Source: Leptolyngbya sp. BC1307
GTDB taxonomy: Bacteria; Cyanobacteriota; Cyanobacteriia; Phormidesmidales; Phormidesmidaceae
Direction of reading: 5' to 3'
Length of the DNA: 64,000 nt
NCBI RefSeq assembly: GCF_002286735.1
Contig: NZ_NRTA01000002.1
Coordinates: forward strand, 186,001 to 250,000
Below, piece by piece: positions 43,861-47,935 of this stretch. The position numbers and the translations under genes are program-made. The notes under the pieces were generated by a model. That model saw only the letters and a program-made list of their open reading frames with translations. It was not told where the DNA came from and did not search any database. The stretch's first letter is position 1. Each line of letters starts with the position of its first letter.

Positions 43861-46800
43861 ATGGCTCAAGTCATCGGCGCACTGCTGATTTTTACGCTGG
43901 TTCCGGTGCTGGGTGCGCTGCCGCTGACAGGCTGGATTGTCCGGCTGCTGACGGGTAAGCAGCTCGCCAAAATTGGGACAGGCAATGTGGGTGTCTCTGC
44001 CGCTTTCTATCATGGGGGCACAGCTGTTGGCTTGCTTTCTGTGGCGGCTGAGGCGATGAAAGGCATCGTCGCCGTGCTGATTGCCCGCTATTTTTTTGGC
44101 GGTGACCCGATCTGGCCGGTGCTTTCTCTCATATTTTTAGTGATGGGCCGGTACTGGGGCAGTCAGGGAGCGGGCACAACGAATGTCGCCTGGGGTTTTC
44201 TGGTCTACGATCCGGTGGTGACAGGTCTGGTCTTCTTGATTAGTCTGTTTGGCTTTACCGTTTTTCGAATGCGGCAGCAGGGGCGACTGCTGGTGCTGGT
44301 GCTGATGCCAGTGCTCACCGCGCTGCGACATCCTGCGGATGGAATGCGGGTGCTGATAGTGGCCTGTCTATCTGGGCTGATTGCCTGGATTTATCAAAAA
44401 ATACCGGATGATCTAGAGATGCCTGCGACCCAAAGTGCCGGAAACTCACGGCGGCTGTTTCGGTTTTTTCAAGGCGATCGCGCCCTCAAATCCCTATCTA
44501 CCGTTTTGTCGGCTGACGAAGTTGGCAATAAAGCCGCGACCCTGTCTCAGCTCTACGCCTGGGGCTATCCGGTGCCGCCGGGCTATGTGCTGCCTGCGGG
44601 TGATGATCCAGCAGCGCTGATTGCAGCGGTTTCACCGAGCGCAGCAGACCCGGTCGTCGCCAGATCTTCCGCTATTGGCGAAGATAGTCTCACCGCTTCA
44701 GCAGCCGGTCAGTACGTCTCAGTCACTGAAATTATGAGCACAGCGGCTTTGGGCCAAGCGATCGCCGTCTGTTTTGAAGCTTACAACCGACCTAGCGCCC
44801 TTCGCTACCGCCGGGATCGGGGCCTGCCCGAGGGCAAAATGACAGTGCTGGTGCAGCCCTACATCACCGGGGTATTTTCGGGCGTTGCTTTTAGCCGCGA
44901 CCCGATCACTCAAGCCAGCGAGGTGGTGGCAGTAGAGGCGCTGCCAGGCGGCGCTGATCGGGTGGTTTCGGGGCAGATTACACCGGAGCGCTATCAGGTC
45001 AGTGTGAGCGAGCCGTCAGCCCATTCAGCGGCCCATTCAGGGACGTGGGAGCTGCCGCCAGAAGAGACGCTGCCTGTGAACGGTCAGGGGCAGGTGCCGC
45101 TGCGGCTGATTCAGCAGGTGGCTTATCTCGCGCGTCATATCGAAAATAGCTGTCATGGCGTGCCGCAAGACATTGAGTGGACCTTTGATGGCGAGCAGCT
45201 CTGGGTGTTGCAAAGCCGCCCGATCACCACATTGCTACCGATCTGGACGCGAAAAATCGCTGCTGAGGTGATTCCGGGCGTCATCCGCCCGCTCACCTGG
45301 TCGATTAATCAGCCGCTGACCTGTGGCGTTTGGGGCGATCTGTTTACAACCGTGCTTAAAAATCGAGCCGCCGATCTCGACTTTTCGCAAACGGCCACGC
45401 TGCACTATGCCCGCGCCTACTTTAATGCCACGCTGCTGGGCGATATCTTCACCCGCATGGGCCTGCCGCCCGACAGTCTGGAGTTTTTGACCCGAGGGGC
45501 TAAGTTTAGCCGCCCGCCGCTGCTGGTCACCCTGCGCAATGCGCCGGGGCTGCTGCGATTACTGCGGCAAGAGATGTCGCTACCGGCTGAGTTTGCCCAG
45601 GCCGATCAGAGCGTCTTTAGCCCGGCCCTGCAGCACTGGCGGCAGCAACCTTTGGCACAGCTCTCAGAAGGTGCGATCGCCGAACGCATTACCGAAGTCC
45701 TCTCTCTGCTGGAGCAAGCCACTTACTTCAATATTTTGGCTCCGCTGAGCTTAGCCTTGCGGCAGGCCATCTTCAAGGTAGATTTGGCCGCGCTTGACAG
45801 TCGCCGCAATCCCGAATTGCGAGCGCTGGAAGATTTAAAGAAAATGGCGACTCAGCTGCGATCGCTCCTCCCCGAACTCGGCTTAAGTTCAGATATCAGT
45901 ACAGACCCTGATTCCGATACGCGCACGCCGCCGAGCAACGGAGCCTCTTTGTTTGCAGCTCTTTCTGAGCATCCCGACGGTCAGCTAGCTTTTGACCAGC
46001 TTGACCAGTTCTTAGATGAATATGGCTACTTGAGCGAAGTCGCGACTGATATTGCAGTGCCCACCTGGCGCGAGTCGCCGCAGCCTGTCCGCGAACTGCT
46101 GACTCAATATCTGTTTGACCCACCCGCGCCGCCTGCTGAGCGTAAAGCGGTGACCGGATGGCGCGATCGCCAGGTGCAGGCCCGCTTAGACTTAAAAGGC
46201 CGGGTCGCAGAAGTCTACGACCGGCTGCTAGCCGTTCTGCGAAGCTGCTTTGTCACCTTAGAAAGCCACTGGCTGAAGTCAGGCAAACTAGCGCTGCAAG
46301 GCGATATCTTTTTCCTCACCTGGACCGATATTCGCACCCAAATAACCGCCCCTCTACCTGCCGCCGAGCTGCAGCTTAAAGTGGATACCGCCAAAGCGCT
46401 CTGGCAGCGTCAGGGTAAGTACCGGGCTCCCTACCTGGTCTACGGTCAGGCCCCGCCAGTACCCGTTGCCGCTAAGCCCCTGATCTCAGCAGGCATTTTG
46501 CGCGGTATTGGGGCCAGTGCCGGACAGATTGAAGGCACCGTGCGCGTGTTAGAAAATCTGGCAGATGCCGCCGACTTCAGCGCCCCGTCAGCTAGCTCCT
46601 CAACTCAGGATTTCCCAACTGTCGAGGCCCAGACTGTCGATGCCCAGACTATTGATGCCCAAACCATTTTAGTAGTGCCCTACACCGATGCTGGCTGGTC
46701 GCCTCTACTAGCTCGCATCGGTGGACTGGTCGCGGAAGTCGGCGGTCAGCTCTCGCATGGAGCCATCGTCGCCCGCGAGTACGGCATTCCTGCTGTGATG

Positions 46801-46884
46801 GATGTCACCGACGCCACTCAGCGACTGACGACTGGCCAGCGTGTCCGTATTGATGGACAGCAAGGAACTATCGAAATCTTGTAG
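43861..46884 (+). CDS. PlsY-like membrane domain fused to PEP-synthase-type dikinase (ATP-grasp + phosphohistidine)
   Basis: A 1007-residue fusion. Residues 1-185 contain about five membrane helices with PlsY (acyl-phosphate:glycerol-3-phosphate acyltransferase) landmarks: KIGTGNVG, EAMKG and GSQGAGTTNVAWG, though the canonical Asn/Arg and GGKG residues are altered. Residues 210-470 are a pyruvate-phosphate-dikinase N-terminal ATP-grasp (VVARSSAIGEDSLTASAAGQY; LVQPYITGVFSGVAFSRDP; ending LWVLQSRPI). A long helical middle follows (480-830). The end holds a phosphohistidine domain with GGQLSHGAIVAREYGIPAV. The PEP-binding TIM barrel is absent, as in rifampin phosphotransferase-like enzymes. A short Val-Asp-Ala-Gln-Thr repeat lies near 925. 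The lipase-like neighbour suggests a lipid or polyol substrate (inference). Confidence 0.88.
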   Translation: MAQVIGALLIFTLVPVLGALPLTGWIVRLLTGKQLAKIGTGNVGVSAAFYHGGTAVGLLSVAAEAMKGIVAVLIARYFFGGDPIWPVLSLIFLVMGRYWGSQGAGTTNVAWGFLVYDPVVTGLVFLISLFGFTVFRMRQQGRLLVLVLMPVLTALRHPADGMRVLIVACLSGLIAWIYQKIPDDLEMPATQSAGNSRRLFRFFQGDRALKSLSTVLSADEVGNKAATLSQLYAWGYPVPPGYVLPAGDDPAALIAAVSPSAADPVVARSSAIGEDSLTASAAGQYVSVTEIMSTAALGQAIAVCFEAYNRPSALRYRRDRGLPEGKMTVLVQPYITGVFSGVAFSRDPITQASEVVAVEALPGGADRVVSGQITPERYQVSVSEPSAHSAAHSGTWELPPEETLPVNGQGQVPLRLIQQVAYLARHIENSCHGVPQDIEWTFDGEQLWVLQSRPITTLLPIWTRKIAAEVIPGVIRPLTWSINQPLTCGVWGDLFTTVLKNRAADLDFSQTATLHYARAYFNATLLGDIFTRMGLPPDSLEFLTRGAKFSRPPLLVTLRNAPGLLRLLRQEMSLPAEFAQADQSVFSPALQHWRQQPLAQLSEGAIAERITEVLSLLEQATYFNILAPLSLALRQAIFKVDLAALDSRRNPELRALEDLKKMATQLRSLLPELGLSSDISTDPDSDTRTPPSNGASLFAALSEHPDGQLAFDQLDQFLDEYGYLSEVATDIAVPTWRESPQPVRELLTQYLFDPPAPPAERKAVTGWRDRQVQARLDLKGRVAEVYDRLLAVLRSCFVTLESHWLKSGKLALQGDIFFLTWTDIRTQITAPLPAAELQLKVDTAKALWQRQGKYRAPYLVYGQAPPVPVAAKPLISAGILRGIGASAGQIEGTVRVLENLADAADFSAPSASSSTQDFPTVEAQTVDAQTIDAQTILVVPYTDAGWSPLLARIGGLVAEVGGQLSHGAIVAREYGIPAVMDVTDATQRLTTGQRVRIDGQQGTIEIL

Positions 46885-46981: not shown

Positions 46982-47935
46982 ATGACCTCGACCCAAACTT
47001 CTTCACAAGGTGTCTCTGAGGGCACCTTTAGCGGCTCAAATTCTCTCCAGCTTTTCTACCAGAGCTGGTATCCGCCTTCGCTGACAGAAACGACGGCTGA
47101 TATATCAGCTGCAGACGCTAATCCATCAGCCACAGCCGGATCACCAATCCGAGGCGTATTGGCTTTGATACATGGCCTGGGCGAACACTCGGGGCGCTAT
47201 TGCAATGTGGTCAAGGCACTGACAGCAGAGGGCTACGCGGTTTTTGCTTTTGACAATCAGGGGCACGGTCGGTCTGAAGGGCAGCGGGGGCATATCGACC
47301 ACTGGCAGGACTATCGCAAAAATACTCAGGCTTTTCTACAGATGGTTCGCCAACAGGAGCCAACCGCGCCCTTGTTTCTGATGGGGCACAGTCTAGGCGG
47401 TCTGATTGTGCTTGACTATGTGCTGCGCGGCGCTCAGTCACCTCAGTTTCAAGCGGTAAACGTTCGGGGGATCGTAGTCAGCGCGCCGCCTATTCAGCCT
47501 TTTAACAGCACGGCTAGTTCGGCGCGAATTGCACTGGCTCGTCTGCTCTCCGGACTTTTACCGCGTCTGACGCTGCGCATGGGGCTCGATAAAAGTGGCC
47601 TTTCTCGCTGCCCGGAAGTAACTGATCAGATTGCCGACGATCCGCTGGTTCACTCCTGTGTGACGCTGCGTTGGGGCACCGAGACCCTTGATACCATTCA
47701 GTGGGTAAAAGCTCATATTGATCAGCTACAGCTGCCAATTTTGCTGATCCACGGAGAAGCTGATCCGATCATCGCACCCGCTGGCAGCCATCAGATTTTT
47801 CAGCAGATTCAAACGCCTGATAAGACGCTCAATCTCTACCCTGGTAGCTACCACGAGCCTCATAATGACCTCGATGCCGAGGTGGTAACTGCTGACCTGG
47901 TTAACTGGCTGAATGGCTGCCTGGCAGAGACTTAG
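46982..47935 (+). CDS. Alpha/beta hydrolase, monoacylglycerol lipase-like
   Basis: A 317-residue Hydrolase_4 (serine aminopeptidase S33/MGLL-type) enzyme with an intact triad: Ser in GHSLGG, Asp in LIHGEADPIIA, His in SYHEPHND. LIHGLGEHSGRYCNVVKALT is the characteristic oxyanion region and FDNQGHGRSEGQRGHI the lid-proximal motif of monoacylglycerol lipases. The first 45 residues are low complexity. Starts 97 bases after the PlsY-dikinase fusion on the same strand, so co-expression is plausible, and the substrate may be a glycerolipid. Confidence 0.9.
   Translation: MTSTQTSSQGVSEGTFSGSNSLQLFYQSWYPPSLTETTADISAADANPSATAGSPIRGVLALIHGLGEHSGRYCNVVKALTAEGYAVFAFDNQGHGRSEGQRGHIDHWQDYRKNTQAFLQMVRQQEPTAPLFLMGHSLGGLIVLDYVLRGAQSPQFQAVNVRGIVVSAPPIQPFNSTASSARIALARLLSGLLPRLTLRMGLDKSGLSRCPEVTDQIADDPLVHSCVTLRWGTETLDTIQWVKAHIDQLQLPILLIHGEADPIIAPAGSHQIFQQIQTPDKTLNLYPGSYHEPHNDLDAEVVTADLVNWLNGCLAET

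Follow-up and report, generated by a model that had tools for sequence, protein, structure and literature searches.

The acyltransferase PlsY is a membrane protein of seven transmembrane helices whose acyl donor is an acyl phosphate. In the Aquifex enzyme the phosphate of glycerol 3-phosphate (G3P) is clamped by Ser35, Arg45, Lys104 and Asn180 and the 2-hydroxyl is contacted by Ser142 and His177; single changes at Arg45, Lys104 or His92 cost most of the activity, H92K leaving 2% and T41S 45% (PMC5700162). Among the dikinases, the catalytic residues of rifampin phosphotransferase (RPH) include Lys22, Arg117, Thr136 and His825, and the pair Arg666-Glu667 is needed in the second half-reaction (PMC4844700). 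The chemistry to be expected of such enzymes, RPH, HpeHI and PpsAB among them, passes phosphate from ATP through a phosphohistidine to the acceptor and releases AMP and Pi (PMC4844700, PMC12167813).

The window analysed here, a stretch of 64,000 nucleotides from Leptolyngbya sp. BC1307, carries on its forward strand a single gene (43861..46884) in which both kinds of protein are joined. We know of no instance of PlsY-type and dikinase-type enzymes working jointly, and a literature search, with subscription papers largely outside its reach, found no paper on this fusion or its function. The 1007-residue product consists of a PlsY-fold membrane domain (residues 1-183, 43861..44409), an ATP-grasp domain (213-460, 44497..45240), a helical acceptor domain of the RPH type recognized by alignment and Foldseek (461-870, 45241..46470) and a phosphohistidine swivel domain (930-1007, 46648..46881), all on the plus strand. 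Pfam profiles PF02660 (G3P_acyltransf; residues 15-177, 64 bits against a cut-off of 24.1), PF01326 (PPDK_N; 260-458, 123.5 bits) and PF00391 (PEP-utilizers; 932-1002, 78.9 bits) all matched well over cut-off, and the PEP/pyruvate barrel PF02896 had no match in the protein. The NCBIfam models for PEP synthase-like proteins, RPH and PigC/RedH all scored below their cut-offs, the RPH model NF041857 giving 210.7 bits against 999. The original prediction, a PlsY-like membrane domain followed by an ATP-grasp, a long helical substrate domain and a His swivel with no PEP barrel, was thus right as a whole, the open reading frame, Pfam and AlphaFold2 with Foldseek being in agreement, and its three proposed profile searches all succeeded. 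These results confirm the combination, RPH-like in the dikinase half and PlsY-like in the membrane half.

A model of the full protein was built with AlphaFold2 from 42 family members (pLDDT 82); at a pTM of 0.63 its interdomain geometry was set aside. The best Foldseek match of this model was the Listeria RPH (RPH-Lm, 5hv2; E 3e-27), and PlsY structures 5xj5-5xj8 were matched with E about 1e-4 and TM scores of 0.74-0.76 by PlsY length. The membrane domain (model pLDDT 89.5), modelled alone, superposes on PlsY 5xj7 with a VIA-align Z of 18.4 and an r.m.s.d. of 2.7 over 177 residues, the next unrelated chain reaching a Z of only 5.8. The modelled N-terminal helices are therefore related to PlsY, as had been proposed, and the earlier count of five helices has to be given up, PlsY being a seven-helix fold (PMC5700162).

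The catalytic residues of RPH are retained in the alignment, Lys22 as Lys224, Arg117 as Arg268, Thr136 as Ser or Thr at 287, and His825 as the predicted catalytic His966 (46756..46758, within GGQLSHGAIVAREYG). Lys224, Arg268, Glu439, Gln451, Arg453 and His966 are present in nearly all of 160 aligned rows (Lys224 in 155, Arg268 in 160, His966 in 154). With these residues intact, the suggestion that phosphate passes through a His intermediate to a membrane-associated substrate is plausible. Two features depart from RPH: the Lys and Arg of the first ATP-grasp lobe stand about 44 residues apart, versus 95 from Lys22 to Arg117, and Arg666-Glu667, aligned through intermediate relatives, is replaced by Lys779-Gly780 (46195..46200; Lys in 153 of the 160 rows), so the second half-reaction may differ from that of RPH. 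The Arg-Glu pair is retained in two non-cyanobacterial relatives. No part of the protein is more conserved than the start of the acceptor domain (residues 461-580; 78% mean pairwise identity), and this argues for one conserved acceptor.

The membrane domain has been rebuilt at the G3P pocket. By alignment, the clamp Ser35/Arg45/Lys104/Asn180 is replaced by Thr40/Tyr50/Gly105/Ile181 and the 2-hydroxyl contacts Ser142/His177 by Leu143/Tyr178, positions 105, 143, 178 and 181 being approximate as they lie after a shortened loop 3. The PlsY active residues had been predicted to be partly altered; altered they are, yet "partly" is too weak, since none of the six side chains of the G3P pocket is retained, although one replacement (Ser to Thr) is conservative. 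In addition, His92 is replaced by Arg97 and Thr41 by Ser46, and the protein scores 28.9 bits with the PlsY equivalog model TIGR00023, far short of its cut-off of 137.2. The family has near-invariant residues of its own, GTGN-x-x-VSAAFYHGG, EA-x-KG, GRYW and GAGTTN-x-x-WG. Motif I, GTGNVGVSAAFYHGG (residues 39-53, 43975..44019), takes the place of GSGNxGATNxxR, and motif II, GRYWGSQGAGTTNVAWG (residues 96-112, 44146..44196), defined from the family alignment, that of GH...GGKGVAT. Mean pairwise identity in the PlsY-like domain, 61.4%, equals that of the ATP-grasp domain (61.5%).

The fusion architecture was found in about 106 of 386 genomes of the phylum, counted among the matches listed and all from the class Cyanobacteriia; it was absent from the listed genomes of one small-genome family (f20). 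With about 100 genomes sharing this architecture, the fusion is not due to chance. A pattern-seeded scan of a separate collection yielded full-length matches at roughly 45 to 50 loci, all cyanobacterial but for one contig; as the one scan in which the fused PlsY-like domain was sought beyond the phylum, it may miss rare copies there. That contig (L084, JAAUUT010000001.1) carries a full-length fusion under the label Candidatus Gracilibacteria and is probably a mis-binned cyanobacterial contig. At another locus (L108, G215:C95:25000-29500) a frame change in the linker yields a PlsY-like reading frame of 215 residues and a dikinase frame of 836, and the split may be a sequencing error or a true fission.

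A separate canonical PlsY is usually present in addition to the fusion. In Leptolyngbya sp. BC1307 it lies elsewhere in the genome (165.7 bits; 167 bits with TIGR00023), and each of the 20 genomes of the window's family has at least two PF02660 matches. Two near-complete assemblies (G051 and G064) lack canonical plsY; as its neighbour gene, present like plsY in sister genomes, is missing too, the gap is probably a masked stretch, and we rejected as improbable the idea that the fusion is the only PlsY of these genomes.

To compare the fates of the two halves, 12 positions of the PlsY-like motif, eight ATP/His positions and six acceptor-domain positions were scored over 141 distinct sequences. 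Both halves are intact in 134 sequences and decayed in six, and one has a mild change in the dikinase only; decay of the motif alone was seen in none of the 141. Motif decay thus accompanies six of the seven decayed dikinases and none of the 134 intact ones (Fisher p 7e-10, which is no true probability since the sequences are related). The decayed sequences fall in about three lineages: family f14, two genera of family f7 (G174, and G091 in which Gln replaces His966), and genome G170, in which a second copy of the gene has its acceptor domain deleted. This second copy (L106, G170:C2:1158500-1162500) encodes 601 residues with PlsY-like, ATP-grasp and swivel domains, and two genomes of the same genus (G408 and G424) have three PF02660 matches each and may share it. 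The f14 genes (L100, L101 and L102, in genomes G058, G083 and G211) are still open, at 916-932 residues, and have lost the PlsY-like loops, Lys224 (to Asp or Gly) and His966 (to Gln), with 0-1 of the 12 motif positions remaining; judged by sequence, they probably encode a pseudo-dikinase. Since their membrane helices stay while the motif goes, anchoring and motif are separable. As scored here, the co-decay shows a shared constraint on the two halves and is silent on the nature of their coupling. The lineages with a decayed copy offer a natural control for tests.

Over 123 fusion loci there is no general neighbour gene. The hydrolase predicted downstream in the window (46982..47935, plus strand) is real (Hydrolase_4, an alpha/beta hydrolase, 249 bits), but it stands beside the fusion in six of the 123 loci only, all closest relatives; it probably lies outside the core system, and its pairing with the fusion for lipid salvage or remodelling was rejected as a core feature. 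A DAGK/YegS-like kinase follows on the same strand at four loci from three families, mostly within about 120 bp, and a PMT_2 glycosyltransferase at five loci, also from three families and including decayed f14 genes, these assignments resting on Pfam typing of two DAGK representatives and one PMT_2 representative. A PMT_2-type gene follows at least two of the three f14 fusions, and a GDSL-like hydrolase gene lies divergently upstream, mostly by 0.4-0.8 kb, at 18 loci (e.g. L137:4174-5343). Lipid-themed neighbours thus occur at nine of the 123 loci, apart from cases in close relatives, and a lipid or envelope theme is suggestive only. As DAGK (PF00781) occurs in nearly all larger cyanobacteria, whether the fusion is present or not, its co-occurrence is uninformative.

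The C terminus of PlsY is cytoplasmic, so the dikinase would lie on the cytoplasmic side, directly at the membrane. This placement, together with the expected chemistry of the RPH, HpeHI and PpsAB type, favours a membrane-bound RPH-type ATP:acceptor dikinase with a lipid-type acceptor, for which the PlsY-like domain is the substrate or product site; we give this reading a probability of roughly 0.55. The fold and domain make-up, the retained RPH residues, the rebuilt but conserved PlsY-like site, the co-decay of the two halves, the recurring kinase and glycosyltransferase neighbours and the separate canonical PlsY all speak for it. ATP bound in the ATP-grasp domain would phosphorylate His966 with release of AMP and Pi, and the helical domain would hold the acceptor to which the swivel domain then carries this phosphate. 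The rebuilt PlsY-fold domain would serve as a specific site in the membrane where the amphiphilic acceptor or product is bound or passed on, and the acceptor is probably one conserved cyanobacterial molecule of lipid or polyprenyl type. Catalysis, the direction of the hand-over and the lipid nature of the acceptor are what we infer from these comparisons. Against this dikinase reading stand the lack of an operon partner in most genomes, the Lys-Gly pair in place of Arg-Glu, the small number of lipid-themed neighbours, and the co-decay itself, which follows equally if the whole gene simply loses function.

It is possible, if doubtful, that the membrane enzyme has two sites: its dikinase would make an acyl phosphate or an activated phospho-lipid and pass it directly to a rebuilt intramembrane site of the PlsY type, which would use it on a new acceptor. 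In a related and rather unlikely scheme the dikinase would turn a carboxylate such as a free fatty acid into an acyl phosphate, with which the PlsY-like domain would acylate an acceptor other than G3P. PlsY does use acyl phosphate (PMC5700162), and the acyl-phosphate side of its site is partly kept (Ser46 for Thr41, the Gly-rich loop, a basic Arg97 for His92), the lost part being the G3P clamp; His92 mutants of PlsY are nevertheless poor, even with lysine (PMC5700162), and the RPH-type enzymes studied phosphorylate hydroxyls (PMC4844700, PMC12167813). Such enzymes act on rifampin and phenolics (PMC4844700, PMC12167813), and this, with the loss of the G3P pocket, would suit a dikinase for a soluble hydrophobic antibiotic-like or phenolic compound, with a degenerate PlsY remnant tethering the enzyme to the membrane. 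We consider this unlikely: a mere anchor is disfavoured because the PlsY-like domain has a near-invariant polar motif of its own, equals the ATP-grasp domain in conservation and loses the motif only when the dikinase decays, in f14 with the helices kept, and a widespread, highly conserved acceptor domain is unlike xenobiotic resistance.

The PF02660 match above cut-off and the PlsY fold might still suggest a bifunctional enzyme or second G3P acyltransferase, but R45Y, K104G, S142L, H177Y, N180I and H92R, read from the alignment, include the very positions at which single changes cost most PlsY activity (PMC5700162), and a canonical PlsY is present, the gaps in G051 and G064 likely being masked stretches. 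With its G3P pocket rebuilt, the fusion protein is very unlikely to be such an acyltransferase, and annotating this family as PlsY on the strength of Pfam is misleading. Still more improbable is a split PEP synthase or pyruvate dikinase of which the fusion would be one half and a free PEP-barrel protein the other: ATP-grasp and swivel domains are homologous to those of PEP synthase, but an RPH-type acceptor domain is present, and none of seven genomes tested has a free-standing barrel gene, all barrel matches lying in separate long reading frames of 747-854 residues, so that we rejected this candidate.

Of the original prediction, then, the PlsY fold, the RPH-like dikinase, the phosphohistidine machinery and a plausible membrane acceptor stand, the hydrolase pair falls away, and the membrane anchor as sole role is disfavoured. 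A protein of about 1000 residues with its own active-site motif is kept across many cyanobacterial families, and the fusion would bring a phosphohistidine kinase powered by ATP to the membrane. Were the two-site scheme true, the PlsX-PlsY relay would have a counterpart fused into one protein and driven by ATP, and cyanobacterial lipid metabolism would include a step not yet described.

Among known systems, the prodigiosin ligases PigC and RedH, which are pyrrole ligases, belong by HMM to one broad family with the fusion as remote relatives, although the fusion matches their models far below the curated cut-offs and, to our knowledge, they have no PlsY-like domain. The two-component dikinases HpeHI, CreHI and PpsAB should share its chemistry, a phosphohistidine swivel moving between ATP-grasp and acceptor domains, but they are built of two soluble subunits with no membrane domain and act on phenolics. 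RPH (PDB 5FBS, 5HV1-3) has the ATP-grasp, helical acceptor and C-terminal His swivel domains in the same order, with conserved ATP residues and His and no PEP barrel; unlike the fusion it is soluble and without a membrane domain, its first ATP-grasp lobe is about 50 residues longer, its transfer pair is Arg666-Glu667 rather than Lys-Gly, and the acceptor domains are only remotely similar. The acyl-phosphate:G3P acyltransferase PlsY (PDB 5XJ5-5XJ9) shares the whole membrane fold (Z 18.4), the GxGN loop and the Gly-rich loop, whereas the fusion has every G3P-pocket side chain changed, a shorter loop 3, conserved motifs of its own and a dikinase attached.
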